In this document: positions 7,043 to 34,394 of the stretch, piece after piece
Layout: each line of letters begins with the position of its first letter
Position numbering within the stretch: position 1 is the first letter of the stretch
Translations under genes and position numbers: made by a program
DNA from: Bacillus sp. UNC41MFS5
GTDB lineage: Bacteria; Bacillota; Bacilli; Bacillales_B; DSM-18226
Assembly (NCBI RefSeq): GCF_000686805.1
Contig: NZ_JMLP01000030.1
Span: forward strand, 1 to 39,268
Direction of reading: 5' to 3'
DNA: 39,268 nt
Notes under the pieces: generated by a model
Database searches by the model: none
Seen by the model: only the letters and a program-made list of their open reading frames with translations
What the model was told of the DNA's origin: nothing

Positions 7043-7058
7043 TACCTACTAATAGGTA
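7043..7058. promoter_or_regulatory. TetR-type operator, site 1 (before PucR-type regulator)
   Basis: TACCTACTAATAGGTA, a 16-bp near-perfect palindrome, is the reverse complement of the site at 27619-27634 and belongs to the same family as five further sites in the window. It lies in the gap between hpr and the PucR-type gene. Confidence 0.65.
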
Positions 7059-7223
7059 AATTGTTTGTAGAATGGTTTTTAATTTCAATAAAATATAGAA
7101 TGAAAAGAAAAGGAAAGGAAAGGAAGAATGGAAAAATGAATTCAATTTGCATCTAAAAGAAAAAAACACATTTCATGAATGTCAAACCTTTCTTATGCGA
7201 GCTCTTTCAATTTTCTAAGGTTA

Positions 7224-7790
7224 TCACTTTTCCTTCACATCAATAAATTCTTTTTCAAAATGCTGGAACATTTGTTCATGAGTATTAATAAATTTTTCAC
7301 CGAAGGTATTTCGAATAATGGCCTCTAGTTCACGCAGCTCAGGGAATTTCCCATATATATTCCTTAATGGGAGGGTTGCTGAAACAAGGCCATTTTCTTC
7401 TGGCTTGTAAGATTCAAGCAAGCTAATGATAATTTCTTTTCCTTTGTCAGTAAGTTGAATATACGTATTTCTTTTATTATCTTCTCTTTTTAAAGATAGT
7501 AGAAGCCCTCGTTCCTCTAACTTTTTGGAAAAATTAAATGCGGTAGACACATGCATGACTCCTAACTCCGCAATTTCGGAGATAGATGCACCGTGTAAAT
7601 GATAGCCAACCCATAAAATATGGTATTCATTAATATTCAAGTTAAATGGTTTTAGCCATTGTTGTAAATCATTTTCAATCACTTTCCAAAGTGCCTTGCT
7701 TAATTGAGCCACTCTTTGATTAAAAATAAGTGCTTCCTTCATAGAATAAATTTTTTTCAAGTTTTCATTCCCCTTTTTTTCGTTTTCCAT
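7224..7790 (-). CDS. hpr: Hpr/ScoC-type MarR-family transition-state regulator
   Basis: This is a winged-helix regulator closely resembling B. subtilis Hpr (ScoC), a repressor of protease, oligopeptide transport and sporulation genes. Family-specific stretches are [29 protein letters not shown] and [18 protein letters not shown] in the recognition helix. The ATG at 7790 (188 residues) has no ribosome site but lies exactly where a transcript from the promoter at 7797-7825 would start. A TTG at 7760 (178 residues) behind AAGGGG is an equally good alternative. The product lacks the charged C-terminal tail of B. subtilis Hpr (203 residues). The chromosome presumably carries its own hpr, so this would be a second copy under a different control: its promoter spacer holds a TetR-type palindrome. 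Confidence 0.87.
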
Positions 7791-7796
7791 AGTGCG

Positions 7797-7825
7797 ATTC
7801 TAACTTACTAGTAAGTTAGTGTCAA
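7797..7825 (-). promoter_or_regulatory. hpr promoter with TetR-type operator in the spacer (site 2)
   Basis: On the minus strand, TTGACA (7820-7825) and TAGAAT (7797-7802) are 17 bp apart. The perfect 18-bp palindrome TAACTTACTAGTAAGTTA covers 7801-7818, filling the spacer. The -10 box ends 6 bp before the ATG, the same geometry as at tetR (28216) and the TetR relic (34359). Confidence 0.82.
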
Positions 7826-7827
7826 TT

Positions 7828-8264
7828 CTATGGACGCCGGGTTGGATCGTTAATTTGGACTCTCTCCACTCTGCCGATTAGTAATGTGTGATCTCCGGCG
7901 TCCACTTTTTGGTCTACCCTGCATTCAAACACAGCCAATGCATTCGAAAAAACAGGTACATGATATAATCCTTCTTTATAGTCAAGTTCCTGGAATTTAT
8001 CTACACCTCGTTTGGCAAAGTGTCCTGATAGTTCTTGTTGCTCTTCTGCCAGAACATGTACGGCATACCCATCGGAATTCATAAACGCACTATATGATCC
8101 GAGTTTTTTATCCAAACTAACTAATATAAGTGGAGGACCTAAAGAAACCAACGTAAATGAGTTTTGCCGTTATTCTCACGGGCTTTCCATTCTCCCCAGT
8201 AGTAGTCACGATTGCCACACCCGTTAAGTATTGACCATAGGCATTACGTACGGAAGAATCGTGA
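7828..8264 (-). pseudogene. Flavin reductase (FMN-binding split barrel), frameshifted
   Basis: The two frames together read as a small NAD(P)H:flavin reductase. The upstream frame gives V-R-N-A-Y-G-Q-Y-L-T-G-V-A-I-V-T-T-T-G and the downstream frame gives S-L-G-P-P-L-I-L-V-S-L-D-K through G-D-H-T-L-L-I-G-R-V. The family's conserved I-T-A-N-S-F-T segment is restored if one A is removed from a run of four on the minus strand (8162-8165). No usable start codon follows the GGAGGG at about 8290, so the 5' end seems damaged as well. The open C-terminal 107 codons alone lack the N-terminal half of the flavin site. A sequencing error in the homopolymer cannot be excluded, but the missing start favours real decay. 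Confidence 0.75.
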
Positions 8265-8712
8265 ATTAAAACTTTCTTGCCTGATAGCCCTCCAATTGAT
8301 AATTATTTATTCTTTGAATGAGCGACAAGCTCGGATTAGGCGAACTTATATCAGATAAACCCTCATCCATTTGAAAGTAACATCTATCATTTCCATCCTT
8401 CTCTCCACCCTTAATTGGGCATTCGAATTAAAGGAGAGAGAATCTTTCGATGACATTCTCCAGTTCATTGAGTTTATTAACTGTTTTTATAGTATCAAGA
8501 TTCTGATTATTTTTAATCGCCTACAAAAGATGGTTTTTCATACAAACTTTCTGTCCGAATCAGCCTAAATTAGATACTTTTGTGGTAAGAAATCATGTCT
8601 AGAAACATTTGTATGTATGTTCATTCCTCCAAGAAATATAGAACAAAAAACTATCTTACGGTATAAGGAATAAAGTGGAAGTATTGAGGGAAATCTACCA
8701 TTATTAAAACTG
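8265..8712. other. Intergenic region between flavin reductase relic and germination operon
   Basis: About 450 bp with no gene I can support. A 65-codon plus-strand frame at 8371-8568 has no ribosome site and no family resemblance. The germination operon promoter must lie in the distal part, but I find no convincing sigma-G-type -35/-10 pair. Confidence 0.5.
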
Positions 8713-8730
8713 ATGCAAGGGAATGAGAAT

Positions 8731-9819: not shown

Positions 9820-9825
9820 ATCTCC

Positions 9826-12413: not shown

Positions 12414-12463
12414 AGGTGACGGAACGTTTTAAAATTCATCATTGTTTTATTCGATTTTTTATC

Positions 12464-12582
12464 AAAAACCCATCCTTATAGAAAAAAAAGGGTTCCGTTT
12501 TGAGTTGCATATCATATAAATGACAATAAAAATGGCTTGCTAACTGACATCAGTTTTGGCAAGCCATTTTCTGGTTTATATA
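12464..12582 (+). repeat. Dispersed non-coding repeat, copy A
   Basis: About 120 bp after the germination operon align with the reverse complement of 19054-19163. Shared blocks are AAAAACC-ATCC, AAAGGGTTCCGTTT, TGCA, a GGC...GCC hairpin containing ACTGAC, and TTTATATA. The copies are diverged but collinear, and inverted relative to each other. No coding potential is seen. Confidence 0.7.
12529..12570 (+). terminator. Terminator after germination operon
   Basis: Arms AAAATGGCTTGC and GCAAGCCATTTT (12 bp) with an 18-base loop form a strong hairpin with A and T flanks. It could act on both strands and is part of dispersed repeat copy A. Confidence 0.75.
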
Positions 12583-12610
12583 GTCTTTTTGACGACATAA
12601 AATACAAATG

Positions 12611-12646
12611 TCTTGTTCAACTAAAGCATGCGTTAGTTGAACAAGA
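12611..12646. repeat. 36-bp near-perfect palindrome
   Basis: Arms TCTTGTTCAACTAA and TTAGTTGAACAAGA (14 bp, perfect) surround AGCATGCG, whose core GCATGC is itself palindromic. It lies between convergent transcription units, so it may be a terminator for the quinone reductase gene (a weak T run follows on minus) or a palindromic insertion target. Confidence 0.7.
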
Positions 12647-12708
12647 AAAACAAAAATCCTTTTCAAAAGAATGATCTTTTTTATGTTAATTATTACAATT
12701 ACTTCAGC

Positions 12709-13242: not shown

Positions 13243-13341
13243 ACTAATCTCGCCTTTGTTGTTCATTTTGTTTTGTAATTTAGAAACTTTTGGTAACCTT
13301 TATAAAATGCTGATTTTTCATTACTATAGAAGCTTAAACAA

Positions 13342-13946: not shown

Positions 13947-15047
13947 TTAAATCAATGTATAAAGATGCTTCTTAACATCGTATTCTTCTATTTCAATACC
14001 ATTTTTTAAACGATGAAGAAAATCTGGATTAGAAATAAATGGACGTCCGAATGCAGCGACATCAATTATTCCTTCTTCAATCGCCTTATTCGCCAATTCT
14101 GGATTTAATGCACCTACCCCAATAATGACACCATCCCAATATTTTCGGACTAATTGATGCATCGTTTTTCCATCTGCAAGCACTCGATCAAATTGCATAA
14201 TCGATGGGTGAATCATTGTTGCACCCGCTTCCTTAAATGCCTCAACAAATGTACGAATAACCATTTCTGGATCTTCCCACATGTAATTTGGTATATCTGC
14301 TTTAAGAGCAGAAAAACGGATCATTGTTCGTTCTGTACCAATTGCGTCGATAACTGCTTTAATTACTTCCTTCATGAATGTTAATCTTTGAGCAAGGTCT
14401 CCACCATATTTGTCTGTACGATGATTGGTTATATCTGAATTAAATTGGTCAATCAAGTATCCGTGTGCACCATGAATTTCCACACCGTCAAAACCTGCTG
14501 CTATTGCATTTTTCGCAGCTTGCGCATATTGATTGATTACTTCATTAATATCTTCAATTGTCATTTCTTCAGGAACATCATATGGCTTACGGAAACGAGA
14601 GACAAGGCCTTCAGCTGGAATAGCTGATGGTGCTTGAGGTGGCAGATATCCTGCAAGCTCGTGATGTGATAAACGACCAACATGCCATATTTGAGCGATC
14701 ATTGTTCCTCCTTCTTTATGCACGGCATCAGTCACTTTTTTCCATCCCATAATTTGTTCGTCCGAATAAATGCCTGGAATTCCAGGAATGCCTTTTCCAC
14801 GTGAACTTATGACCGTTCCTTCTGAAATGATTAAACCAACTCCATCGGCAGCACGTTTTCGGTAATATTCAACAATATCCTCTCCTACTACTCCTGTTTG
14901 ATCATCTGCAAAAGATCTTGTTAAAGGTGCCATTGCGATACGTGATCGTAAATTCCAAGCTCCGATTTTTATCGGTTCAAACAATTTACTTTCTAAACCA
15001 TTTTTTAAATAACCCCAAGAATTTGTTTCATTAGTAATTTGACTCAT
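13947..15047 (-). CDS. Old yellow enzyme family NADH:flavin oxidoreductase (alkene reductase), copy 2
   Basis: This is a 366-residue FMN enzyme collinear with copy 1 and about 93% identical. All the catalytic features are kept: R-I-A-M-A-P-L-T-R, W-H-V-G-R, the H192/H195 pair in IHGAHGYLID, and N-H-R-T-D-K-Y-G-G. Substitutions concentrate in the first 20 residues and in surface loops, so both copies are likely active and may differ in substrate range. ATG 15047 has GGAGGAA nine bases upstream and fixes the start of both copies. It is preceded by its own arsR and an operator whose left arm differs at two positions (TTCGATATTT). No transporter follows, so this module looks like the reductase half of the circuit only. 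Confidence 0.93.
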   Translation of the reverse strand: MSQITNETNSWGYLKNGLESKLFEPIKIGAWNLRSRIAMAPLTRSFADDQTGVVGEDIVEYYRKRAADGVGLIISEGTVISSRGKGIPGIPGIYSDEQIMGWKKVTDAVHKEGGTMIAQIWHVGRLSHHELAGYLPPQAPSAIPAEGLVSRFRKPYDVPEEMTIEDINEVINQYAQAAKNAIAAGFDGVEIHGAHGYLIDQFNSDITNHRTDKYGGDLAQRLTFMKEVIKAVIDAIGTERTMIRFSALKADIPNYMWEDPEMVIRTFVEAFKEAGATMIHPSIMQFDRVLADGKTMHQLVRKYWDGVIIGVGALNPELANKAIEEGIIDVAAFGRPFISNPDFLHRLKNGIEIEEYDVKKHLYTLI

Positions 15048-17152: not shown

Positions 17153-17163
17153 GCATATGATAC

Positions 17164-17406: not shown

Positions 17407-17686
17407 TTAATAATACTATTTCTTTTATTCAACTTTTACTATCTCTTTAATCATATCAATAAATTTTATCAGAAAATTACTTCTATTCTTCCAGGCAAAC
17501 ATTCCCATTTATTTTAGCGAACTTATTCAACTCCCTCAGTTTGATACGATTATCTCTCGAATGCTCACTTATTCGCAGGATTTCATAACCCTTTTAATTG
17601 GATTTTCGGATAAATGAAATGAGTCCAGATCATTTTGGCTTCGTGAAGGCATAGTTAAATAAAGGAGTCAGCTGCCACTCCATATT

Positions 17687-18764: not shown

Positions 18765-18959
18765 AGTAGGGCTTCCTCCTTAAGACCCTGAGTTTAGATT
18801 GGTCTCTATACTCGTATCTTACTGAGGGGCTTTATTTTTTTCAAACCTGATATTTAACGATCTACAGGAATGCTATACTGCTTCTGTTGAGTAAGCTTAG
18901 GTAATTTTTATGATTTAATATCAAAATGTTAGTGAAATTGACTGATCATTTGACACGTT

Positions 18960-23817: not shown

Positions 23818-23850
23818 AGATTATCACTTTGACCAAAATCTACTCTACTC

Positions 23851-23889
23851 CCTTCCCCATTCCGCTTGATGGAATGGGGAAGGTTTTTT
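23851..23889 (+). terminator. Rho-independent terminator after subtilase gene
   Basis: Perfect 13-bp arms CCTTCCCCATTCC and GGAATGGGGAAGG with a 7-base loop are followed by six T. It is the strongest terminator in the window and lies between the convergent protease and LysR genes. Confidence 0.95.
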
Positions 23890-23905
23890 AAAAAGGGAAA
23901 ATTCT

Positions 23906-24832
23906 TCAGAAAGTAAGGAAAGTATTTTCAGGATACACTCTCTCATTCAGTTTTGTCTTTTCCACATAAGCAACCATCAAGTCTATAAAACTTCTTGCAG
24001 CAGATCCAATATACTTTTCTTTATGATGTACAATGGCGATTTCCTTACAAATAGCTGGGTTTTCTATTTTAATTACCTTTAGGGTTCCATCATTCTCCGA
24101 ATCGAGAAGTGTTCTGGGAAGAATGGTTGCTCCAATACCTGCTTTCACTAAACTCAATATAGATTTTACCTCAGTTAATTCGATGATTGGCTGAATGGCA
24201 AATCCCACAGAGGCAAAGGCAGCATCAATTAACTTCCGGCACGTGTGGTTTATTGGACATAATACAAGTGATAGGTCCCTTATCTCTTCCAACTCCACTA
24301 TATCCCTATCTGCCAATGGATGGTCATCTGAAACCGCCAAAAAATATTCTTCAATATATAAAAGGATATTCGTTAACTTTTCATTCTCTACAGGCATGAG
24401 TGTCAAAGCTATATCAATTTCATTTCTAAAAACCTTTTCTTCAATGTTATCTGACATAAAAATCTTTGTTTGCACATGGGGCCACTTGCGATGAAGTTCT
24501 AAGAAAACGACGGATGCAAGCTGACTTAACTCTTCCGACATTGCCCCAATGATTAGTTTTCCTTTTTTTACATTTTGAAGTTCTTCCATTTGTTCATAAA
24601 CACTATTTATATTGGAGAATATATTTCCAGATTGTTCTCGTAGAATTTCACCAGCTTCTGTGATGGCGATTTTTTTTCCTAAACGATCAAATAAACGGAC
24701 TCCTAATTTATCTTCAAGGGTTCTCATTTGACGGCTCAAAGCAGGTTGTGAAATTCCTAATTTTTCAGCAGCCCTTGTGAAATGTAATTCCTCACATATA
24801 GCCATAAAGTATTCCAATTCCCTTAATTCCAT
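23906..24832 (-). CDS. LysR-family transcriptional regulator
   Basis: This is a 308-residue LysR regulator. The N-terminal winged helix M-E-L-R-E-L-E-Y-F-M-A-I, H-F-T-R-A-A-E-K-L-G-I-S-Q-P-A-L-S-R-Q is followed by the linker helix and a periplasmic-binding-like effector domain (about 90-300). The effector domain has the pattern K-G-K-L-I-I-G-A and L-V-K-A-G-I-G-A-T-I-L-P, typical of the CynR/GltC-like group. ATG 24832 has AAGGGG six bases upstream. No divergent partner gene is present: upstream is an empty 320-bp stretch and then vanY on the same strand, so its target is not shown by context. The effector is unknown. Confidence 0.92.
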   Translation of the reverse strand: MELRELEYFMAICEELHFTRAAEKLGISQPALSRQMRTLEDKLGVRLFDRLGKKIAITEAGEILREQSGNIFSNINSVYEQMEELQNVKKGKLIIGAMSEELSQLASVVFLELHRKWPHVQTKIFMSDNIEEKVFRNEIDIALTLMPVENEKLTNILLYIEEYFLAVSDDHPLADRDIVELEEIRDLSLVLCPINHTCRKLIDAAFASVGFAIQPIIELTEVKSILSLVKAGIGATILPRTLLDSENDGTLKVIKIENPAICKEIAIVHHKEKYIGSAARSFIDLMVAYVEKTKLNERVYPENTFLTF

Positions 24833-25153: not shown

Positions 25154-25927
25154 TTAGTTATTTACTTTAGCAGCATTGTAGTATTCTTCTAGTGTAATGC
25201 CTTGGCTCGTGATTTCCTTTGCGAGTTTTTTGCCGACATAACGAAGATGCCATGATTCATATTGATAGCCTGTAACGGCTTCTTTCCCTTTTGGATAGCG
25301 GATGATGAAACCGTAATCCGCTGCATGCTCCTGCAGCCATTTGGCCTCAGTACTGTCACTGAAGCAATCAGCTGCCGCGCATTTGCCATCTCCTTCTGTC
25401 ACATCGATGGCCAGTCCAGTTTCATGCTCGCTTGTCCCAGGAAGGGCGCTATAGGTTCTCGCTTTTAGATAACCATCCCTATTAACATAAGTATTAAAAA
25501 GAGAAATTTGTGTCTTTTCCGATCTGTAAGCCGAAACTCCTAATAAATTCACACCCTGTGCTTTCGCAGCATCAAAAAGTTTTTTTATAGCAGCTGCAGC
25601 TTCATTTCTCATTTCGTGTTTTTCTGAATTAGCCGGCGAAGGAACAAACGGTATTTGGGTAAAAACAAGGTCCTTGGGCACATAGCCGGCAGGCAGTTTA
25701 TTTTGTTTGTTCACCAGCACGGGAATGCTTTCAGGATTTGAAACAACCACTGTACGATTATTTTGAAAATTATAATGGGCTTGCTTTTGCTCATTGACTT
25801 GCTTCCCTTTATGCTGTTTCTCCACTAGGGAATTTTGCTTAGCAGTATTATACATAGATAGCGAAAAACCGGCTAGTGTAATAGTAACGACAATACAACA
25901 AATTCCAGTTGAAATTAATTTAAACAT
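25154..25927 (-). CDS. D-alanyl-D-alanine carboxypeptidase, VanY/YodJ (M15B) family
   Basis: This is a 257-residue exported zinc peptidase that trims stem peptides of peptidoglycan. An N-terminal hydrophobic segment (about 5-27) gives a membrane anchor or signal. The M15B catalytic region carries the zinc ligands in S-E-H-E-T-G-L-A-I-D-V (His168, Asp175) and W-H-L-R (His227), with upstream S-A-Y-R-S-E-K-T-Q. Two cysteines (A-A-D-C and G-K-C) inside the insert after the first motif could form a disulfide, as in YodJ-type proteins. ATG has AAGGAAG about seven bases upstream. It is a single gene, with fabF upstream and a terminator downstream. There is no VanA or VanX homologue, so vancomycin resistance is not implied. 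Confidence 0.92.
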   Translation of the reverse strand: MFKLISTGICCIVVTITLAGFSLSMYNTAKQNSLVEKQHKGKQVNEQKQAHYNFQNNRTVVVSNPESIPVLVNKQNKLPAGYVPKDLVFTQIPFVPSPANSEKHEMRNEAAAAIKKLFDAAKAQGVNLLGVSAYRSEKTQISLFNTYVNRDGYLKARTYSALPGTSEHETGLAIDVTEGDGKCAAADCFSDSTEAKWLQEHAADYGFIIRYPKGKEAVTGYQYESWHLRYVGKKLAKEITSQGITLEEYYNAAKVNN

Positions 25928-26016
25928 ATTAAACTTCCTTTTTTAAAAAAATTTCATTGGTTGGTTTACATTTGCTCCTTCATCACCTATCGATTATTCC
26001 TTTTCTTCCGTTCACT

Positions 26017-27252
26017 TTATATCGAAAATTTCTTAAATGCCAACACTGCATTGTGTCCTCCAAAACCAAAACCATTAGAAATAGCATAGTTTATTTTCAT
26101 GTTAACTGCATGGTTTGGAACATAATCTAAATCACACTCTTCATCTGGTATTTCAAAATTAATAGTTGGAGGAGCTATATCTTCCATGATACTTTTGAGG
26201 GTTATTACAGCCTCAATCCCACCTGCTGCTCCAAAAAGGTGCCCAGTCATTGATTTTGTGGAACTTACCTTTAAGTTATAAGCATGAGTACCGAAAACAC
26301 TTTTAATCGCTTTGGTCTCTGATTTATCTCCTTCAGGGGTACTTGTACCATGTGCATTTATATAATCCACATCCGTCAATCCAATATTCCCCATATATAA
26401 AGCCAATTTCATGGCATTTGCGGCCCCATTGTAGTCAGGGGAAGTAATATGGTATGCATCTGTTGTGGAGCCATAACCTACGATTTCTCCTAAAATTGTC
26501 GCTCCTCTTTCCTTCGCATGTTCATATTCTTCCAGGAATAAAACACCCGCTCCTTCAGACATGACAAAGCCATCACGCCCTTTGTCAAATGGGCGACTTG
26601 CCTTTTCTGGAAAATCATTAAGAGTAGACATTGCTCTCATTCTTGAGAATCCAGCAAAAGCTAGTGGATTAATAGGAGCTTCAGCCCCTCCAGCTAATAT
26701 GCCATCAGCATAACCATGTCTAATATTTAAAAAAGCTTCTCCAATTGCTTGATTCCCTGTTGCACAAGCAGAAACAGGTGAAAAGCTAGGTCCTTTAAAA
26801 CCTGTTTTGATAGATATTATTCCTGACGACATATTACTGATCATCATTGGAACCATAAATGGAGAAACTTTTCTTGGTCCCCTTTCAAGAAATGCTTTAT
26901 GATTTTCTAATGTAGTATTAATTCCTCCAATACCGGAACCAATATAAACCCCTAATCGATCCTTATTAACATTTTGTAAATCTAGATTCGCCTGTTCTAA
27001 AGCTTGTTGAGCAGCAGCAACAGCATACTGTATGAATAAGTCATATTTCTCCTGTTCTTTTTTATCCATATATTGCTCTGCGGCAAAGTCGGTAATATAA
27101 CCTGCAATTTTGGTGTTAATATTGTTATAGTCATCAGATTCAATTTTTTTGATGCCTGAATTACCTTCTTTAATGTTCTTCCAGAACGCTTCAATTGTAT
27201 TTCCTAACGGTGAAACCACTCCATATCCTGTTACGACAACTCTTCGTGCCAT
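26017..27252 (-). CDS. fabF: Beta-ketoacyl-ACP synthase II (FabF-type)
   Basis: This is a 411-residue thiolase-fold condensing enzyme that elongates acyl-ACP with malonyl-ACP. The triad is complete: Cys163 (S-A-C-A-T-G-N), His301 (N-A-H-G-T-S-T) and His338 (S-M-T-G-H-L-F-G-A-A-G-G), with Lys333. ATG 27252 follows AGGAGAG; an upstream ATG (27285) adds 11 residues absent from the family. There is no fabH, acyl carrier gene or other synthesis gene nearby, so it is a stand-alone paralogue. It may alter membrane lipid composition or serve a small pathway elsewhere. Only 36 bp upstream ends a TetR C-terminal relic preceded by a TetR-type operator. The gene is therefore probably read from that promoter and repressed by the nearby TetR. 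Confidence 0.93.
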   Translation of the reverse strand: MARRVVVTGYGVVSPLGNTIEAFWKNIKEGNSGIKKIESDDYNNINTKIAGYITDFAAEQYMDKKEQEKYDLFIQYAVAAAQQALEQANLDLQNVNKDRLGVYIGSGIGGINTTLENHKAFLERGPRKVSPFMVPMMISNMSSGIISIKTGFKGPSFSPVSACATGNQAIGEAFLNIRHGYADGILAGGAEAPINPLAFAGFSRMRAMSTLNDFPEKASRPFDKGRDGFVMSEGAGVLFLEEYEHAKERGATILGEIVGYGSTTDAYHITSPDYNGAANAMKLALYMGNIGLTDVDYINAHGTSTPEGDKSETKAIKSVFGTHAYNLKVSSTKSMTGHLFGAAGGIEAVITLKSIMEDIAPPTINFEIPDEECDLDYVPNHAVNMKINYAISNGFGFGGHNAVLAFKKFSI

Positions 27253-27287
27253 CAAAAACACTCTCCTGTCATTCCTTTTTCGCATAA

Positions 27288-27602
27288 CTACTTCAAAAGA
27301 GCTTTAAGTTGTTCAAATATTTTAGACAAGAAACCATCTCTTAATACACGTTTACATTGTAATCCGCCCTTGATGCTTGAAATGAGAAAAACTGCTAATG
27401 CTTACAGATCGTCAGTATTTTGAATGCGCCATTCCTTTTTGATGTCCTTAAGCAATTCTGATAGAAAATCTATTTCGATTTGACATAGACGTTTTACTTT
27501 CTGTTGCATGAGTATAGGCAAATAATTATAATCTGCCAATAATGCTGCGATAGGGCACACACAATCGGATGAATATAATGAAAAAAAGGCCAAGTTTGCC
27601 AT
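27288..27602 (-). pseudogene. TetR-family regulator, C-terminal half only, with an in-frame stop
   Basis: From ATG 27602 (AAGGG upstream) the frame has C-P-I-A-A-L-L-A-D-Y-N-Y-L-P, matching C-P-V-S-S-L-Q-S-D-Y-E-S-L-P of the intact TetR at 27668. After a TAA at 27402-27404 the same frame resumes the alignment (A-L-A-V-F-L-I-S-S-I-K-G-G-L-Q ... E-Q-L-K-A-L-L-K) to TAG at 27288. The DNA-binding half is absent, so no repressor activity is possible. An operator lies directly upstream and fabF directly downstream. The 66-residue product could be made but has no evident role. Confidence 0.8.
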
Positions 27603-27618
27603 GGGGTGAACCCTTTTT

Positions 27619-27634
27619 TACCTATTAGTAGGTA
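27619..27634 (-). promoter_or_regulatory. TetR-type operator, site 3 (before TetR relic and fabF)
   Basis: TACCTATTAGTAGGTA, 17 bp before the relic's ATG. A weak -35 (TTGGAA) with 17-bp spacing would place the operator in the spacer, as at the other sites. The -10 is poorly matched. Confidence 0.7.
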
Positions 27635-27667
27635 TCTTCCAAAAATAAATCAGTTTCAAAAAGCTTT

Positions 27668-28216
27668 TTAACCTTTTAAAAGGCGGTATATTTCATTCAT
27701 TGCTTGCTGCAATATCTCCTTTCCCAGTACCCGTCCGTATTGTATTGTTCCTTTCATACATGACACGATGGCAAAAGCTAATGATTCAATTTCTTCGGCT
27801 CCCCTTTCTACCAGTGTTACCTTAAGAATATTTTTAATAATCGTTATTTCTAACTGACTGATTTCTCGTACTTTTTGCCTTACTTTTTCAGGAAGGGATT
27901 CATAATCTGACTGGAGAGATGAAACCGGGCATATCCCACCGTCGCTTAAGACAATTTGTCTCTCTAAAAAATGCTTGATCTTTTCTTCAACAGTCAGCTT
28001 AGAATTCGTAATGAAGGATAAAAAGTCCTGCAAATTTTGAAGCACCAGATCAGTAACGGCAACTCCCAAATCCTCCTTTTTTTCAAAATGATAATGGATG
28101 CTACCTTTCGTCACACCCAATCGTTTGGATAAATCATCATAGCTAATGGCTACATAGCCTTTTTCACGAATTAGTTTCAGTGCCAGATCGATAATTTGTG
28201 TTTTCCTGTTCTCCAT
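27668..28216 (-). CDS. TetR/AcrR-family repressor (probable owner of the palindrome regulon)
   Basis: This is a 182-residue repressor. The N-terminal HTH has G-Y-V-A-I-S-Y-D-D-L-S-K-R-L-G-V-T-K-G-S-I-H-Y-H-F, with a ligand domain of the LmrA/YxaF type (C-P-V-S-S-L-Q-S-D-Y). The ATG is preceded by no ribosome site and lies only 6 bp after the -10 box, so the transcript is probably leaderless. No later in-frame start would keep helix 1. Its promoter spacer is occupied by ACTTACTAGTAGGTAAGT, so it is almost certainly self-repressed. Six related sites lie before other genes in the window, which makes this the best candidate for a local master repressor. Fragments of two sister regulators lie at 27288 and 34073. 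The effector is unknown, likely a hydrophobic or toxic small molecule. Confidence 0.9.
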   Translation of the reverse strand: MENRKTQIIDLALKLIREKGYVAISYDDLSKRLGVTKGSIHYHFEKKEDLGVAVTDLVLQNLQDFLSFITNSKLTVEEKIKHFLERQIVLSDGGICPVSSLQSDYESLPEKVRQKVREISQLEITIIKNILKVTLVERGAEEIESLAFAIVSCMKGTIQYGRVLGKEILQQAMNEIYRLLKG

Positions 28217-28222
28217 GATTAT

Positions 28223-28251
28223 ATATTAACTTACTAGTAGGTAAGTGTCAA
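28223..28251 (-). promoter_or_regulatory. tetR promoter with operator in the spacer (site 4)
   Basis: TTGACA (28246-28251), 17-bp spacer, TAATAT (28223-28228), start codon 6 bp further on. The palindrome ACTTACTAGTAGGTAAGT covers 28229-28246. It gives autoregulation and a predicted leaderless start. Confidence 0.85.
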
Positions 28252-28314
28252 GATTAGGCTGATTTCATCCCGCCACTTCATCGGTAAAATGACTGAGACC
28301 CCGGCTTGCCGTGT

Positions 28315-28440
28315 ATGCTTACGATTTTCGTCTATTGCAGCTTTCGGGAACTCGATGGTCATAAGCCTCTTCAATACCAAGAGCATCTGGCAAAACTTGA
28401 TAAATCGATAGAGGACTTGGCTGAAAATGAAACCGATTGA
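28315..28440 (+). pseudogene. Unassigned short coding relic
   Basis: A 41-codon plus-strand frame ends in a well-formed amphipathic helix (H-K-P-L-Q-Y-Q-E-H-L-A-K-L-D-K-S-I-E-D-L-A) at TGA 28440. The composition looks protein-like rather than random, resembling the C-terminal coiled helix of some regulators, but there is no ribosome site and I cannot name a family. The surrounding gap (28252-28570) contains nothing else I can support. Confidence 0.25.
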
Positions 28441-28570
28441 AAGTCCTGTCGTTCTTAACAAAACTCATTGATTAATTTGAAATTTTGTAATGTAAAACAC
28501 AAAAAAATCATTGATATTTGACAAATTGTGTAAATATTGCGGATGCCTATTGTCTTAAAAAGCAATAGAA

Positions 28571-28592
28571 AAAGCACTCAGATGAGTGCTTT
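28571..28592 (-). terminator. Rho-independent terminator
   Basis: Perfect 10-bp arms AAAGCACTCA and TGAGTGCTTT with a 2-base loop are followed on the minus strand by a T-rich tract. It ends transcription from the 28729-29451 gene through the aldo-keto reductase relic. Confidence 0.75.
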
Positions 28593-28601
28593 CAAATGCC
28601 A

Positions 28602-28735
28602 TCATATTTTAGGAAAAAATCGGTCAATACCTTGGATTTCTTCATTCGTTAAATGGACTTCTAGTGTTTTCAGATTTTGCAAGACTTGTTCTGCCCTTTT
28701 TGCTCCCGGAATGATGACGTCAATGGCTTCACGGG
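28602..28735 (-). pseudogene. Aldo/keto reductase, C-terminal relic
   Basis: About 43 codons read I-P-G-A-K-R-A-E-Q-V-L-Q-N-L, then L-T-N-E-E-I-Q-G-I-D-R-F-F-P, ending at TGA 28602. The I-P-G-A-x-x-x-x-Q-V-x-x-N segment is the cofactor-phosphate-binding tail of aldo/keto reductases. The rest of the gene has been replaced by the 28729-29451 gene, whose own stop codon lies within the first codons of this tail. Confidence 0.75.
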
Positions 28736-29451
28736 TTGAACCGGAAGTTGCTGAGATCAATCGAGACTAGCAGCAGATCCTTAACTGGCTCCAAATTGGG
28801 TCCACGAAGATATGCGCGGCGTTTTGTCGGGAAACGAAGCCCTTCGATCTCAATGAAGTCGTAGACATATTGCGCCGCTGGAAAGCCACCTGAAACATCG
28901 ACATGGTAGTCGTGCCTGCGTAGTAGTAAATCATCGCCAAAGTAGAAGTCTTGCTCCTTGCTATGACTGGCGACGTGTTCGGGAAACCGTACACGCAAAC
29001 CGTGCCAGAGCCCGTTGCCCTCTTGCAATGGGGGGATTTCACTGACCTCGAATCCTGGCATGACCATAAAAAAAGGCGTTGTCAGGTATGTCCACATTGC
29101 GTACCCGTTGAAATATGCTCGATGAAGCGGGTCCCACGGTGTGTTCATCGTATGGTTAGCAAACAAGGTCCTAGGATCGTATTTCTCGCGGACGGTTTCC
29201 CCAGAGAGGGTCTCAATCGCGATACGATTGGGGGTAAAGGCAGTACGCCAATCCGGTTGACCAAAGGGAGTAACAGATGCGATTTCCGAATGTAGCGCGA
29301 CCGTCATCTCACGAGGATTGGAATCTTGTACGAGCCCTTTCATTGCCCATAAACCGCCACCAGTGACGATCGTGGCAGTCAGTGAACTAAATTTTTCCCA
29401 TCGGTCAATTCCGCCGTGCGCGTCAATAATTTTTGCAAGTAGGTTGTTCAT
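28729..29451 (-). CDS. Conserved hypothetical protein of foreign base composition
   Basis: This 240-residue protein is one I do not recognise. It begins M-N-N-L-L-A-K-I-I-D-A-H-G-G-I-D-R-W, has F-Y-F-G-D-D-L-L-L-R-R-H-D-Y and ends with R-A-Y-L-R-G-P-N. Alternating short strands suggest a beta-rich, LolA-like or lipid-carrier-like fold, but this is only an impression. There is no signal peptide or membrane helix. The coding DNA is visibly richer in G and C than its neighbours, which suggests transfer from a higher-GC organism. A strong host-like ribosome site AAGGAGGAG precedes the ATG. Its 3' end abuts an aldo/keto reductase tail in another frame, marking an insertion or recombination joint. 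UspA lies upstream on the same strand. Confidence 0.72.
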   Translation of the reverse strand: MNNLLAKIIDAHGGIDRWEKFSSLTATIVTGGGLWAMKGLVQDSNPREMTVALHSEIASVTPFGQPDWRTAFTPNRIAIETLSGETVREKYDPRTLFANHTMNTPWDPLHRAYFNGYAMWTYLTTPFFMVMPGFEVSEIPPLQEGNGLWHGLRVRFPEHVASHSKEQDFYFGDDLLLRRHDYHVDVSGGFPAAQYVYDFIEIEGLRFPTKRRAYLRGPNLEPVKDLLLVSIDLSNFRFNP

Positions 29452-29516
29452 ATTCTCCTCCTTAAGTTGAAAGATGATTCGTTAATGAAAATGAGCTTTA
29501 ATAAATCACCTCATAT

Positions 29517-29939
29517 TTACTTTACAATCATTACACCACAATGCGCATGCTGGACCACTTTATGGCTTACACTTCCCACGAGCAGTTCTGAAAAGAGGCT
29601 AAGTCCCCTGCTGCCCATTACGATCATGTCGTAATCTCCTTCTTTTGCCTTCTTGCATATCATTTCTGCAGGATCTCCAATATGGTATTCGCTATCATAT
29701 TGTATAGATGACCCTGAAAGGACTTGTGCGGATTCTTCTAAAATCCTCCTAACTTCCTCTACTTGCAATTGTTCAATATCCACTCCGTAAGCAACTGCAT
29801 TAATATTGTTACTAGGAATAATATGAAGTAGCGTTATACGGGCATTTATCCCAATGTTTTGCGCCAACCATTTAGCCGATTTCAGTGCATGTTTGGAATG
29901 TTCGGAACCGTCAACTGGAACCAAAAACCGTTCATACAT
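29517..29939 (-). CDS. Universal stress protein (UspA family)
   Basis: This is a 140-residue single-domain Usp of the ATP-binding kind. It starts R-F-L-V-P-V-D-G-S-E-H-S with the Asp at the nucleotide site, and ends with G-S-R-G then nine residues then G-S-V-S, the G-2X-G-9X-G-S phosphate loop. ATG 29939 follows AAAGGGGAG; an earlier ATG at 29987 lacks a ribosome site. Usp proteins are small cytosolic dimers raised under stress, with roles in redox and membrane-stress survival that vary by species. The gene is alone, with the unrecognised gene 28729-29451 downstream. Confidence 0.92.
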   Translation of the reverse strand: MYERFLVPVDGSEHSKHALKSAKWLAQNIGINARITLLHIIPSNNINAVAYGVDIEQLQVEEVRRILEESAQVLSGSSIQYDSEYHIGDPAEMICKKAKEGDYDMIVMGSRGLSLFSELLVGSVSHKVVQHAHCGVMIVK

Positions 29940-29994
29940 GTTGTCACTCCCCTTTTTATAAAATCTTATTTTTATAATAAAACCCATGACGTGA

Positions 29995-30034
29995 TTATTG
30001 TGATGTAACTCTAGAATAATAACGATTAAATCTG
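29995..30034 (-). pseudogene. Tail fragment of an MFS gene
   Basis: Bases 30012-30034 are identical for 23 bp to 32838-32860 inside the intact MFS gene at 32554-33999. In frame they read R-F-N-R-Y-Y-S and then stop (TAA 29995). It is a relic of a second copy of the segment after the last transmembrane helix. Confidence 0.5.
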
Positions 30035-30081
30035 TACGAGCGAATTAGCGCGATAAAATGGAAAAATAGTTTCATTGAAAA

Positions 30082-30295
30082 TTACTGCCAATCGTGCAAA
30101 TGTGTCTTGAACCATTCCATGGCTGCGCTGCTCGATTGGTCGAAATATTGCGTGTACGGGTCAAAATGTCCTCCCGGTATCAGCTGTGGCTTCGAACATT
30201 ACATCTTCTGCGAAGACTTCGGGATATGCAGCTTGAAACTTATTTGCCAATGCGGTTTCCCAGTCACTTCTTGTCGATTTATCCATCTCAATCAT
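30082..30295 (-). pseudogene. Fused relic with alpha/beta-hydrolase C-terminal tail
   Basis: From ATG 30295 a 44-codon frame (W-E-T-A-L-A-N-K-F-Q-A-A-Y-P-E-V-F-A-E-D-V) stops early. An overlapping frame reads L-I-P-G-G-H-F-D-P-Y, then S-S-A-A-M-E-W-F-K-T-H-L, to TAA 30082, which is a typical alpha/beta-hydrolase C-terminus with its catalytic His (G-G-H-F). The first part is not one I can assign. The arrangement suggests a deletion that joined the heads and tails of two genes, leaving no functional product. Confidence 0.55.
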
Positions 30296-30431
30296 ATTTA
30301 ATAGTTTGAAAGTATTAGTTTACAAAATAAAGGGTTCTAGAGCTTTGTAAGCTTATTTAAAATAAAGGCTCTTTTTATGACCGCCATTGTACAGCTAATG
30401 TGCTTTTAAAACTAACGAAGATCCCTTTTAA

Positions 30432-31271
30432 TTAAGCTTTGACAGCATTTGCTGAACCCCAAAGCGCTCCAGGGTTTACTCGATTTGGATAAAGATCAAG
30501 CATTGCATTGTATAAATCTAAAACGTTGTCTGTTTCTTTATCCAAACGAATAAAGTCTAACAGATATTGTTTAGTTTCATCCAAAATTTTTGGGTTATTA
30601 TCATTTTCAGGGACTTTATGACCCGCAATAACAAATTTAGAATTTAATTCTTTCAAGCCATCGATCGCTAGGATCCATTCAAGTCGAGAACTCTCTGTTG
30701 TTTCAGCTAGATGCTGATGGATTCCGTTGTAAACAACATCACCTGCTACCAGTAATTCAATATCTGGAATCCATAATAATGTTGTATTTGCTGTATCCGT
30801 AAATCCAGCTTCAATAATTTCTAACCTATGTCCTTCAAGTTCAAAAGAATTTGAATCGATTCCCTCAGGAAAAACTTGGGGTTGAGGAATTTGATTAGGG
30901 AATAATTCCCCCCAAAAACTTTCAATTTGTTTTGGACTTCCTTGTATATAACTCACTTCAACAGATCCTTTTGTTGCTAGTGCTTTGACATTTGGAAATG
31001 CCTCTTTTATTTGTTTGATTCCAAAGAAATGATCCCCGTGACCATGCGTGATATAGACATATTTCAAGTTACGATCAAAAGACTTTATCCAATCAATCAA
31101 TTTTTGGTTTTGTTCAATTGTAGTAAAAGTATCCACTAAAACTGCGTCTTTTTCTCCATAAATTAAAGTAGCAGTATTGGAAACCCATTGAAGATCTTCT
31201 TTTCCTTTTGGCAGGTTTCTTGTGAGGCCGGCACGTTTTACGCATAATTCAGCGAATTGTAAGTTTGACAT
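30432..31271 (-). CDS. Metallo-beta-lactamase-fold hydrolase
   Basis: This is a 279-residue cytosolic MBL-superfamily protein with the zinc motif H76-x-H78-x-D80-H81 (T-H-G-H-G-D-H-F-F-G), a bridging Asp in V-A-G-D-V-V-Y-N-G and a late His in A-G-H-K-V-P. It resembles the broad group of stand-alone MBL hydrolases, and I would not predict beta-lactam resistance. I choose ATG 31271 (AAGGATGG upstream). A 51-codon in-frame extension upstream lies next to the operator, lacks a ribosome site and is not part of the fold. A TetR-type operator at 31427-31444 indicates control by the local TetR. The substrate is unknown. Confidence 0.88.
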   Translation of the reverse strand: MSNLQFAELCVKRAGLTRNLPKGKEDLQWVSNTATLIYGEKDAVLVDTFTTIEQNQKLIDWIKSFDRNLKYVYITHGHGDHFFGIKQIKEAFPNVKALATKGSVEVSYIQGSPKQIESFWGELFPNQIPQPQVFPEGIDSNSFELEGHRLEIIEAGFTDTANTTLLWIPDIELLVAGDVVYNGIHQHLAETTESSRLEWILAIDGLKELNSKFVIAGHKVPENDNNPKILDETKQYLLDFIRLDKETDNVLDLYNAMLDLYPNRVNPGALWGSANAVKA

Positions 31272-31426
31272 TTTAACCATCCTTAAATTTTTTATTAAAC
31301 GATCCCCATGTATGTCTGAACCCCCATCCGCCCGTAATAAATAGTAGCAGTATTTTTCAATAGCATGTAATATGCGGGCTAACGTTTGTGTTCTACTTTC
31401 AATGTTACTGCCTTTTGTTGGCATTA

Positions 31427-31444
31427 ATCTACTAGTAGGTAAGT
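31427..31444 (-). promoter_or_regulatory. TetR-type operator, site 5 (before MBL hydrolase)
   Basis: ATCTACTAGTAGGTAAGT on the plus strand has two changes from the tetR operator. Weak promoter elements with the same 17-bp geometry flank it on the minus strand (TCAATA and TAATGC). It lies about 155 bp before the MBL start codon. The adjoining 31445-31625 gap has no gene. Confidence 0.7.
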
Positions 31445-31625
31445 ATTGAGTATTATTGCAATGATTAATTCATTACCAATCGTTCGCGGCATTGGTCGAA
31501 ACATAAGGTGTTGTCTCACGAAATTAATGTTTTTAGAATGATCCATAACAAAGAAACAGCGACGGGTAAATGACCCTAAAAAGAAAGTCTAAGACCGCCG
31601 CTTGTGTTTTCAGCCTTTTATTCAA

Positions 31626-32438
31626 TTAGTCAGCTTCAGTCGACCGCTCAAACCATGTGTTGACTTCTTCAAGCCGTTTGGTATAAGCTTCGCGAATCGT
31701 ATATGCAGCTTGAGATCCAACTGCCAAACGAAGCGGCGAATTGTCGCTTTTTATAACGGAAATAATCAGTTCCACTGCTTTTGCTGGGTCGCCGGTCTTG
31801 ATGTTCGACATACCTTTCTTGTATGCTTCATATAGCGGAGCATATTCTTGTTTCTTCTCGGTATGCTGCATCGATTCGCCAAAAAACTCTGTTGCGTACA
31901 CGGAAGGCTCCACGATTGTCGTCTTGATCCCGAAACCTGCGAACTCTTGCGCGAACGCTTCGGAGAAGCCTTCAACTGCAAACTTGGATGCAGCGTATAT
32001 ACTGTACGGAGGCATGGACCAAGTTCCGAAGAAGGATGAAAAATTAACGTAATGGCCCGATCCTTGACGTTTAAAGACGGGGAGTGTTGCTCGGATGACA
32101 TCTAGTACACCGAACACGTTGACGTCGAACTGCTTCCGGATTTGTTCATCCGTATACTCCTCCATCATTCCGAACAGTCCGTATCCGGCATTATTCACCA
32201 CAATATCTATTTTCCCGAAAACGTCAACGGCTTCTTGAACGGCGGATTGAATTTGCGCCTTATTTGTCACGTCCAAAGCTGATAGGTGAACACGATCCGG
32301 TGCCAGTTCTTTAAAATCCTGAATAGATTCAAGTTTGCGTGCCGTTGCGACCACTTTGTCTCCTGCTTGAAGCAGCTGCTGCACAAATTGCCGTCCGAAT
32401 CCTGACGAAGTTCCTGTAATAAACCATACTTTACTCAT
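31626..32438 (-). CDS. Short-chain dehydrogenase/reductase (classical SDR) 1
   Basis: This is a 270-residue NADP(H)-dependent oxidoreductase. The cofactor motif T-G-T-S-S-G-F-G is at residues 8-15, then D-V-T-N, N-N-A-G-Y-G, and the catalytic Ser134/135, Tyr148 and Lys152 (Y-A-A-S-K). The sequence type matches oxidoreductases often annotated as SDRs acting on unspecified ketones or aldehydes. I choose ATG 32438, eleven bases after AAGGGAG, over an ATG nine bases earlier that crowds the same site. It lies 115 bp downstream of an MFS gene on the same strand, so the two may be co-transcribed. Confidence 0.9.
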   Translation of the reverse strand: MSKVWFITGTSSGFGRQFVQQLLQAGDKVVATARKLESIQDFKELAPDRVHLSALDVTNKAQIQSAVQEAVDVFGKIDIVVNNAGYGLFGMMEEYTDEQIRKQFDVNVFGVLDVIRATLPVFKRQGSGHYVNFSSFFGTWSMPPYSIYAASKFAVEGFSEAFAQEFAGFGIKTTIVEPSVYATEFFGESMQHTEKKQEYAPLYEAYKKGMSNIKTGDPAKAVELIISVIKSDNSPLRLAVGSQAAYTIREAYTKRLEEVNTWFERSTEAD

Positions 32439-32553
32439 CGTAATCATTTCTCCCTTTTTATTTATTCAGATCCGCTCCTCCGCTTTGATGACAAAACTTG
32501 ACAGCGATCGATCAATAACTTTTTGCTTTTTGAATTTAATAATTTGTTGCTCT

Positions 32554-33999
32554 TTAATATTTCCTCCCGAAATTTTCCTTTATATTTACAACTAGTGATT
32601 TTGAAGATTCCATAATTTGCTCCGCATTTGAATTGAATTCTATTTTAGTGAATTCATTTAGTAACTGTAATATTTGATTCGCTGCTTGGAAATTTTCATT
32701 CGCAATTTGGGCTTGTATGCTCTCTGAGCCGTGGATTTTTACATTCTCTCTTAAAATTTCCAGCATTACTTCCATTTTATTGTGACAATTTATAAAATCT
32801 TGCATGGATTTCTCTGTTGATGCAACTTTAGAGTATTTAGAATAATAACGATTAAATCTGATTGAATAAATCAACACATAGATAACAATTACCGCAGCAA
32901 ACAAATTTAGCATAATCAATGAGAAGTTCAAGCTAAAAAATTGAGTCAGCACTCCGACTCCAATAGGAGGAATTATGAATCCGGAGTAGGCGCATAAATA
33001 AAATGCCGAAATGACTCGCGGACGTTCTTCCGGTTTCGGCAACTGGCTGGCAAACCTTAAAGCAACTTGAAACGTCCACCCACCGCCAATTGCTTGAATG
33101 AATATGCTGGCCCATACCAAAAATAAATTCGCTGTCAGACCAGAAAATACAATGCCCCATGATCCAATAGCAAGTAGTAAGATTCCAAAGCGCATCCGTG
33201 AGACTGGATGACTCGGCCAAGGAACGAACTGAGCCAAAGCCCCTCCTCCAAGAAGCAACAAGATTATAATCCCTGAAAAGGCAAGATTTGAAGTGTGAAT
33301 GACATTTCTGACGAAAGAAGGTATTAGGGATAACGCAATTCCTTGAATTGTGAAAACAGTAAAGATCGGCAGTGCAGCAAATGACCAAAAATGTGAACGA
33401 ATACTATTAGGCACTCCAAGTGATATCTTAGTCTTAGCCGGTTTCTGCATGAGGGAATCCTCATGCTTAGGAAGAGTTTCCAGAATTACTAAAGAAGTAA
33501 TTAACATTACAAGTAAAAACCAGAATGGTACTCTAAGCGGCTGCAGATGTAAATATTGCAAAATTAAACCAGCAATAGCTGGACCTAGGCCAAATCCGAT
33601 GAGTACCGTTGCTCCTGATAACTTAATAGCTGTACTTACTTTATTAGGAGAGATTTGTTTTATTAAAAATGCAGCGGCAGTACCTGTAAAAGAGCCATAT
33701 GCAATACCTTCCAATATTCTTGCAGCATAGAGCATCCAAACATCAAAACTGCCTAGAAAGAGCAATGTAGAGGCAATAGAAATCCATATACTGCTGCGAA
33801 GCACCCTCTTCAATCCCCAGGCGCTCCCTTTGGCTCCTACAACAAACAGGGTCGGCAGTAGGATAGCGGCATAAACGGCAAACAAAATCGTAATTTGCAG
33901 ACTATTCAATTGATAATGTTCACTGTACAAAGGAAATAACGGTGTAATAAATGTTGCACAGCAGGACATTATAAGATAAACCCAAAGCATTCTTTTCAT
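32554..33999 (-). CDS. MFS transporter with long cytoplasmic C-terminal extension
   Basis: This is a 481-residue major facilitator of the cytoplasmic membrane. Twelve hydrophobic helices fill residues 1-385, with the usual G-x-x-x-x-A/R-type loop after helix 2 (G-A-K-G-S-A-W-G-L-K-R). The last 95 or so residues after R-F-N-R-Y-Y-S-K are hydrophilic and helical (S-M-Q-D-F-I-N-C-H-N-K, E-I-L-R-E-N-V). They look like a cytosolic regulatory or dimerising tail not normally present in this family. ATG follows AGGAA. A TetR-type operator lies 33-50 bp upstream, so it is likely an efflux pump controlled by the TetR. The substrate is unknown. Confidence 0.88.
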   Translation of the reverse strand: MKRMLWVYLIMSCCATFITPLFPLYSEHYQLNSLQITILFAVYAAILLPTLFVVGAKGSAWGLKRVLRSSIWISIASTLLFLGSFDVWMLYAARILEGIAYGSFTGTAAAFLIKQISPNKVSTAIKLSGATVLIGFGLGPAIAGLILQYLHLQPLRVPFWFLLVMLITSLVILETLPKHEDSLMQKPAKTKISLGVPNSIRSHFWSFAALPIFTVFTIQGIALSLIPSFVRNVIHTSNLAFSGIIILLLLGGGALAQFVPWPSHPVSRMRFGILLLAIGSWGIVFSGLTANLFLVWASIFIQAIGGGWTFQVALRFASQLPKPEERPRVISAFYLCAYSGFIIPPIGVGVLTQFFSLNFSLIMLNLFAAVIVIYVLIYSIRFNRYYSKYSKVASTEKSMQDFINCHNKMEVMLEILRENVKIHGSESIQAQIANENFQAANQILQLLNEFTKIEFNSNAEQIMESSKSLVVNIKENFGRKY

Positions 34000-34031
34000 T
34001 TTAGAAATTCCTACTTTCTCAATTTTATTTT

Positions 34032-34049
34032 ACTTACTAGTTGGTAAGT
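34032..34049 (-). promoter_or_regulatory. TetR-type operator, site 6 (before MFS transporter)
   Basis: ACTTACTAGTTGGTAAGT has one change from the tetR operator and lies 33 bp before the MFS start codon. The promoter boxes are less clear than at tetR. Confidence 0.78.
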
Positions 34050-34072
34050 TATATTCCTAGAAAAACCGCCTT

Positions 34073-34359
34073 TTAATTTTTAAAAAGACGGTTTATTTGA
34101 TTCAGAACTTGAGATCATACATCCTTTACTAACATGCGTTAATCTTGCAAAGTACCTTCTATCCATGACAGAAATGTATAAGCTAATGATTTATCGGTAA
34201 CGGCAACTCCGAAATCTTCTATTTTTTCAAAATGATAGTGAATGCTTGCCTTATTTACCCCCTGCTGTTTGGAGAAATCATCAAAACTTATGGCAACATA
34301 ACTCTTTTCCGGAATAAGTTTTAGTGCCAGGCCTAAAATTTGTGTATTTCAATTTCCAC
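34073..34359 (-). pseudogene. TetR-family regulator relic, DNA-binding half retained
   Basis: After a one-base loss near the GTG start (34359), the frame reads S-Y-V-A-I-S-F-D-D-F-S-K-Q-Q-G-V-N-K-A-S-I-H-Y-H-F-E-K, parallel to the intact TetR at 27668. It stops at TAA 34139. A short out-of-frame tail, L-N-Q-I-N-R-L-F-K-N before TAA 34073, matches the end of the intact TetR (M-N-E-I-Y-R-L-L-K-G). So most of the ligand domain was deleted. The promoter and operator upstream are intact. Confidence 0.8.
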
Positions 34360-34365
34360 TACTGT

Positions 34366-34394
34366 ATTTTAACTTACTAGTAGGTAAGTGTCAA
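34366..34394 (-). promoter_or_regulatory. Promoter with TetR-type operator in the spacer (site 7)
   Basis: TTGACA (34389-34394), 17-bp spacer, TAAAAT (34366-34371), then 6 bp to the GTG of the TetR relic. The operator ACTTACTAGTAGGTAAGT (34372-34389) is identical to that of the intact tetR. Confidence 0.82.

Follow-up and report, generated by a model that had tools for sequence, protein, structure and literature searches.

Seven palindromes on a Bacillus contig as predicted operators of an AltR-type TetR repressor, with thiol-reactive stress as its probable signal

Here, we report that seven related palindromes in a 39,268-bp stretch of Bacillus sp. UNC41MFS5 DNA (contig NZ_JMLP01000030.1, hereafter the window) are best explained as operators of one TetR-family repressor, encoded at 27668–28216, which resembles AltR of the onion pathogen Pantoea ananatis and is predicted to release its operators when a thiol-reactive chemical reacts with Cys96. 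We give this reading a probability of about 0.7. That the seven sites are one set owned by this TetR, the palindrome keeping a fixed place at its gene, is strongly supported by the sequence comparisons, and by analogy the set is probably a Gram-positive AltR-type regulon for thiol-reactive stress. If true, a single predicted thiol-stress switch would stand over a pump and a hydrolase as well as an additional hpr copy. A Gram-positive form of such a regulon was not found in the open-licence literature searched.

Seven palindromes and their predicted repressor

Scanning the window with a 16-mer consensus (three mismatches at most) returned six palindromes against 0.05 expected from 100 shuffles; the seventh site, at hpr, diverges at more positions and was recovered not by the consensus but by a symmetric 20-mer scoring matrix built solely from the seven window sites. 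With this matrix, the seven sites score 22.5 to 28.6 and the next best position of the window 12.3, and 60 dinucleotide shuffles gave only two positions of at least 16 in total, the top one at 17.3. All seven palindromes listed by a sequence-only reading of this DNA are thus present, well above chance, and the adjoining genes it named are as stated, i.e., a PucR-type regulator, hpr, a tetR remnant with fabF, tetR, a gene of the metallo-β-lactamase (MBL) fold, a major facilitator superfamily (MFS) gene, and another tetR remnant (Table 1). A literature search with the operator letters returned only human-genetics papers.

A homologue search with the TetR of 27668–28216, keeping one genome per species, gave 45 loci at 40 to 63% identity, 44 of them titled with genera that we take to belong to the Bacillales and one titled Pseudomonas sp. 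ISL-84. By the window matrix, a palindrome lies within 300 bp upstream of the tetR homologue in 37 of the 45 loci, exactly 29 bp before the start codon in 32, and a second copy lies directly behind the gene, 540 to 800 bp from the tetR start, in 24, the place that the 27617 site occupies in the window; elsewhere in these loci, 25 sites were counted in 837 kb. The palindrome also accompanies the gene across genomes. Among 193 genomes of the family of Cytobacillus oceanisediminis (TetR limit E ≤ 1e-30), the exact pattern is present in 12 of 12 genomes with the TetR and in 16 of 181 without it, and since 32 of the 34 exact matches in those 12 genomes are on the tetR contig within 10 kb, the regulon appears to be that of an island. 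In 104 genomes of the family of Paenibacillus sp. V4I3 (E ≤ 1e-40), a slightly wider pattern occurs in 9 of 11 TetR genomes, in one of the nine on another contig only, versus 6 of 93 others. A broad pattern allowing one mismatch, run over 16 genomes, gave mostly chance matches according to a reversed control, and exact patterns were used thereafter. The fixed position and the co-occurrence support the owner that had been proposed from the sequence, and the TetR at 27668–28216 is very probably the owner of the sites. The proposed seven-site regulon is strongly supported as one TetR-owned set, less so as a list of targets, i.e., a dead tetR lies between two of the sites, comparative support is lacking for the PucR-type target, and the MBL site is missing in the only syntenic relative identified.

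The TetR would block its target promoters by occupying or flanking the -35 and -10 boxes. Read by eye, the sites at hpr, tetR, and the 34.4-kb tetR remnant show TTGACA and TAnnnT separated by 17 bp that contain the palindrome, so that the proposed placement between the two boxes is exact at these three; the hexamers at the MFS and MBL sites are weak, and those at 7041 and 27617 are unconvincing. At the window tetR, the operator core fills the spacer between TTGACA (28246–28251) and TAATAT (28223–28228), and the ATG follows six bases later; the same layout (TTGACN, 17 bp, TnnnnT, start codon three to nine bases on) recurs in 30 of the 45 loci. These six bases leave no room for a ribosome-binding site, and with 6 bp between the -10 box and the ATG at both genes, the tetR and hpr transcripts are probably leaderless.

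Table 1. Predicted operators and associated genes of the window
Feature	Positions	Strand	Remarks
Operator O1 of tetR (predicted)	28226..28245	.	score 28.6; same place in 32/45 homologue loci
Operator O2 behind tetR (predicted), before tetR remnant A and fabF	27617..27636	.	score 22.5; downstream operator in 24/45 homologue loci
Operator O1 of second cassette (predicted)	34369..34388	.	score 28.6; 20-mer identical to 28226 site
Operator O2 of second cassette (predicted), before MFS gene	34029..34048	.	score 26.2; operator here also in L152 and others
Operator before MBL gene (predicted)	31424..31443	.	score 26.2; missing in L152, about 100 bp differing
Operator in hpr promoter (predicted)	7800..7819	.	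score 26.8; flanks 23/28 identical to L039 tetR start
Operator 72 bp before PucR-type gene (predicted)	7041..7060	.	score 24.8; no clear promoter hexamers
tetR, intact, predicted AltR-type repressor; Cys96, Cys153	27668..28216	-	TetR_N; alignment with 41/45 loci; profile match to AltR 99.4%; pLDDT 92.6
tetR remnant A, C-terminal half of a Lysinibacillus/Psychrobacillus-like TetR, same family	27291..27593	-	tblastn with intact homologues, 52-57% to L031, L033, L035, L036
fabF, possible O2 target	26017..27285	-	TIGR03150 above cut-off
VanY-like carboxypeptidase behind fabF	25154..25927	-	45% to L005 VanY; related VanY genes behind operators in relatives
tetR remnant B, about 272 bp lost internally, frame broken	34079..34354	-	tblastn; nucleotide comparison with L001 and L152
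MFS transporter, predicted target	32554..33999	-	MFS_1; 67-87% identical homologues adjoin operators in relatives
Short-chain dehydrogenase/reductase (SDR) behind MFS gene, possibly co-transcribed	31626..32447	-	adh_short; 89-91% homologues behind operator in L002, L146
MBL-fold hydrolase, predicted target	30432..31424	-	Lactamase_B
hpr (scoC) paralogue, predicted target	7224..7790	-	curated Hpr/ScoC model NF010349, 262 bits vs cut-off 153; 55-64% to chromosomal Hpr
XylR_N/V4R/PucR-type regulator, possible target	4993..6969	-	domain matches; 0/20 homologue loci with site

Correspondence with AltR and the alt cluster

AltR, described in 2026, represses the alt (allicin/thiosulfinate tolerance) cluster of P. 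ananatis; its box, CAATCTAC[N6]GTAGATTG, is required for repression and its Cys100 for release by thiosulfinate, and a second repeat, IR2 (TTACCAAC[N6]GTTGGTAA), precedes strongly induced alt genes, AltR binding there being left open by the authors (PMC13178969, excerpts). The window matrix, blind to alt, was run on 50 kb of a P. ananatis plasmid. Its four top positions are all in alt, i.e., 24.1 (43902), 19.4 (47391), 18.0 (40808), and 17.3 (42241), and these places are IR2, which lies between the genes for the DMT transporter and the aminotransferase, a box upstream of OsmC, a site flanked by the old yellow enzyme (OYE) and thioredoxin genes, and the altR box; the fifth position, 8.8, is also in alt, and the best one outside it reaches 8.2. 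In the altR box the unspecified six bases are TAGTTG, in IR2 they are TAGTAG, and both repeats contain the core YWACTAGTWGGT, which is exact in four of the seven window sites and changed at one base in the other three. Because the altR box and IR2 share this core, the comparison suggests that they are one operator type and that IR2 would be an AltR operator as well.

At the protein level, the window TetR is 51% identical to AltR over 61 residues of the DNA-binding part (profile probability 99.4%), and an operator of the altR box/IR2 kind precedes its own gene (O1). Cys96 falls on Cys106 of NemR with a profile probability of 94.9%. In an alignment of the window protein with those of 41 of the 45 loci (L011, L016, L017, and L039 left out), Cys96 is retained in 41 of 42 proteins, and the exception, from L040, is likewise without operator. 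The sequence-only reading had tied the regulon to one small-molecule signal; by analogy with AltR and NemR, thiol-reactive stress is more likely than a classical ligand, in which case a thiol-reactive chemical would modify Cys96 and the TetR would leave its operators.

In the 24 loci with a second operator, the gene behind it encodes an MFS pump in 15, Ohr in 3, VanY in 1, and other proteins in 5. Over all loci then in the set, duplicates included, the operator-adjoining genes are tetR (64 entries), MFS pump (37), OsmC/Ohr-like (15), and VanY (8), with minor groups or single cases that include, on the opposite side of tetR, YetF-like and GerA-like genes, and also genes for a cupin, an iron-sulphur protein, an HlyD-type protein, and SDR enzymes. 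In L143 and L149, an MsrAB fusion gene stands behind the second operator with a small open reading frame intervening. A plasmid of Metabacillus dongyingensis carries in one row an S8 peptidase, a LysR, a TetR, four Ohr, and a universal stress protein, and the window holds homologues of the peptidase (30%), LysR (57%), TetR (52%), and stress protein (49%). The S8 peptidase and LysR genes (19426–24832 in the window) also lie beside tetR-Ohr units in L047, L148, and L018, as if travelling together.

Two tetR cassettes and a probably captured promoter

The arrangement operator-tetR-operator-target recurs in many relatives, the target mostly being an MFS pump. The window holds two such units, one with an intact tetR and one with a decayed tetR that has kept both operators and the pump. 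The comparison is with L152, a locus of genome G239 in the Paenibacillus sp. V4I3 family, to which positions 28737–34397 of the window align in four pieces (94.5, 87.2, 82.1, and 84.4%) that leave out most of the SDR gene. In L152, an intact tetR (185 aa) precedes the pump, with operators on both sides; in the window, remnant B sits at the place of that gene and both operators are kept, the promoter of the first reading TTGACA (34389–34394) and TAAAAT (34366–34371). Since an identical 20-mer precedes remnant B and the intact tetR, the simplest reading is that the intact TetR now controls the pump of the second unit in trans. The pump itself is 481 aa long (474 in L152) versus about 390 aa in most relatives, its C terminus extending about 90 aa further. 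The window and L152 also share an identical stretch of 40 bases in inverted orientation (30301–30340 versus 4415–4454).

A third copy of the tetR promoter precedes hpr. Hpr/ScoC is a transition-state regulator in B. subtilis. Upstream of the window hpr, TTGACA (7820–7825), the operator, TAGAAT (7797–7802), six bases, and ATGGAAAA reproduce the tetR layout. With the operator set aside, 23 of the 28 flanking bases equal those of the L039 tetR start, the median over the 45 tetR starts being 18, and among 17,547 control ATGs of the same loci the mean flank identity is 9.6 of 28, 12 reaching 18 and none 23. This match makes it most likely that a tetR promoter, with operator and start codon, was captured by hpr, which would place a MarR-type regulator under the same control. 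The chromosomal gene stands apart. Of 80 genomes of the G010 family, 79 have exactly one hpr (E ≤ 1e-40), 55 to 63% identical to the window copy, and none of 30 chromosomal hpr loci has an operator scoring at least 14, another promoter being common to them. Homology starts at window residue 9 to 13 in the 30 best rows (2 to 13 over all rows), and translation may begin further in, near codon 11. Adjoining the captured promoter is a flavin reductase remnant (7828–8151) that lacks its N-terminal part.

Control of the MBL, fabF, and PucR-type genes by the TetR is proposed from the position of their sites. The listed MBL start codon (31424) overlaps the palindrome, and the open frame of the L152 relative is only 282 aa long, so that the true start is probably downstream; at E 1e-60, one of the 104 genomes of the L152 family has an MBL homologue, without site. 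Homologues of the PucR-type gene (E 1e-60) occur in 47 of the 193 genomes at about 26 to 32% identity; in another family (80 genomes), a limit of E 1e-100, too strict to be informative, gave no match.

A possible operator code beyond the Bacillales

Eight further loci with AltR-like or SIH[HY]HF-type TetRs, hand-picked and not a survey, were scanned with the window matrix. They come from Rhodococcus, a Pseudomonas aeruginosa plasmid, two Agrobacterium, two Klebsiella, Acinetobacter, and E. coli; five loci were taken from the 60 records listed of 653 AltR-like plasmid records and four from 1551 records, the negative L208 included. Together with alt, which makes nine loci, the best scores add up to 137.6; 40 column-permuted matrices averaged 54.1 and reached 76.8 at most. 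Some loci taken singly are weak, i.e., 8.2 in L217 and 11.3 in L211, and the permuted matrices reach the observed best in 5 of 40 (L211), 2 of 40 (L210), 1 of 40 (L215), and 0 of 40 for the other six. The best sites lie near tetR or before OsmC, OYE, DUF417, and cupin genes, that of L213 about 1.9 kb from the TetR with nothing annotated there. At the two loci with another recognition helix, nemR (best −1.2) and L208 (best 3.8), the matrix found no site. The spread of the code across phyla is suggestive. We consider it an even bet that one thiol-stress operator code, with the core YWACTAGTWGGT, reaches from Bacillota via Actinomycetota to Proteobacteria and is read by TetRs that combine a central cysteine with an SIH[HY]HF helix; such a code would unite the altR box and IR2, and promoter capture would make the mobile Hpr copy answer a thiol-reactive signal.

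Genomic context

The window (GC 38.4%) suggests a mosaic element in a Bacillales host, because its IS110 element matches a plasmid copy of Peribacillus simplex at 91% identity and its fabF matches two Priestia plasmids at about 89%. A search of plasmid records with positions 1–25000 and 26000–36100 matched these two and, for the rest, short or weaker pieces, and a plasmid origin was set aside accordingly. The IS110-type transposase (17522–18881) is split into two overlapping reading frames. A gerA-type gene set and hpr lie between two OYE genes (865–1983 and 13947–15047), which share 92.9% identity over 366 aa; neither OYE gene is preceded by a palindrome, and OYE genes belong to alt clusters.

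Alternative explanations and significance

Several observations weigh against an AltR-type regulon with a thiol signal. Among the 45 homologue loci, eight (L021, L026, L028, L029, L030, L034, L037, and L040) have no upstream site of at least 16. Read by eye, convincing promoter hexamers are missing at the 7041 and 27617 sites. None of 20 fetched loci of PucR-type homologues has a site of at least 14, and L152, the sole syntenic relative found, has no MBL site of at least 16, about 100 bp there being unrelated. Cys96 aligns beside Cys100/101 of AltR, next to a gap, and the window palindromes and the AltR repeats have different centres of symmetry, so that their reading may differ in detail. Most alt genes are missing as well: of 11 alt proteins compared with the window proteins at E 1e-4, only altR, OYE (36%), and SDR (25%) find a match, the alt OsmC has none at that limit among the relatives' Ohr proteins, and the window has no Ohr/OsmC gene and no Ohr remnant at E 1.

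Alternatively, the TetR may bind the sites but act as a plain repressor of an efflux pump, with a drug or metabolite as the ligand that releases it and no role for cysteine modification. Most TetR regulators act via ligand binding, and an MFS pump is the commonest neighbour behind the second operator (15 of 24 loci). CssR, a similar TetR without redox-active cysteines, controls stress genes (PMC8176726, excerpts), which also speaks against a thiol signal. Against such drug release stand the retention of Cys96 and its alignment on NemR Cys106, the Ohr/OsmC targets of relatives together with the MsrAB genes that follow the second operator of L143 and L149, and a site code that is that of AltR; we regard a ligand-released repressor as unlikely, though the strongest of the alternatives. 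A little less likely again, the intact TetR may control its own cassette only, the MFS, hpr, MBL, and PucR-type sites being functionless leftovers of lost paralogues, as the two same-family tetR remnants in the window, the clustering of sites near tetR in relatives, and the MBL and PucR-type sites unsupported by relatives would allow; the identical 20-mers at 28226 and 34369, together with scores of 24.8 to 28.6 at the places concerned, predict binding in trans nevertheless, and the promoters at hpr and remnant B are intact. A different DNA-binding regulator encoded in the window, either the TetR at 36763 or Hpr, is a very improbable owner. The former (36763–37365, TetR_C_13) has a different, imperfect palindrome upstream, AAGACCGTTCGGTTTT at 36719–36734, likely its own operator, and no site of the seven type nearby; for Hpr, the site-free chromosomal hpr loci and a palindrome that follows the 27668-type gene argue the opposite.

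An AltR-type repressor predicted to sense thiol-reactive stress is thus the reading we prefer. It would provide a TetR sensor with a ready-made list of operators that is directly testable, and the element would show operators outliving their own repressor gene, open to pick-up by an unrelated regulator gene.

Comparison with known systems

The closest solved structure is a TetR of Legionella pneumophila (PDB ID: 3on4; TM score up to 0.91, 30 to 32% identity), in which the helix reads SIHYHF and a cysteine occupies the aligned position, and whose title states no function; FadR and NemR are among the matches that come after it. NemR of E. coli (PDB ID: 4yze; TM score 0.72 to 0.78) has Cys106 under Cys96, whereas its recognition helix reads PKGSFYHYF and the nemR locus holds no site by the window matrix, i.e., no site of this type is shared. 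DitR of Stenotrophomonas maltophilia is likewise a TetR that senses through cysteines and controls MFS genes, a single box lying between the -35 and -10 hexamers; it differs in its operator, CATACnnnnnGTATG, and in having two sensing cysteines, Cys92 and Cys127 (PMC9342713, excerpts). The allicin-resistance islands of Pseudomonas PfAR-1 combine tetR with osmC, sdr, and oye genes, within an otherwise different gene set (dsbA, trx, ahpD, kefC); no operator was found there (PMC7119367, excerpts). In B. subtilis, the abstract and passages of an allicin study name OhrR, HypR, YodB, and CatR, of the MarR/OhrR and DUF24 families, as thiol-modified regulators and do not mention a TetR regulator (PMC6943732).

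AltR and its cluster differ from the window system in a weakly conserved ligand-binding half, in the centre of symmetry of the sites, and in the DsbA, thioredoxin, CMD/AhpD-like, glutathione reductase, and OsmC genes of alt, which have no window protein match at E 1e-4. What they share is the DNA-binding helix (TKASIHHHF versus TKGSIHYHF), self-control (predicted for the window TetR), several operators over one island, the core YWACTAGTWGGT, a cysteine in the same region, and OYE and SDR genes in the island. The window sites would thereby carry the AltR kind of regulator into Gram-positive bacteria, and they predict that the altR box and IR2 are one type of operator.

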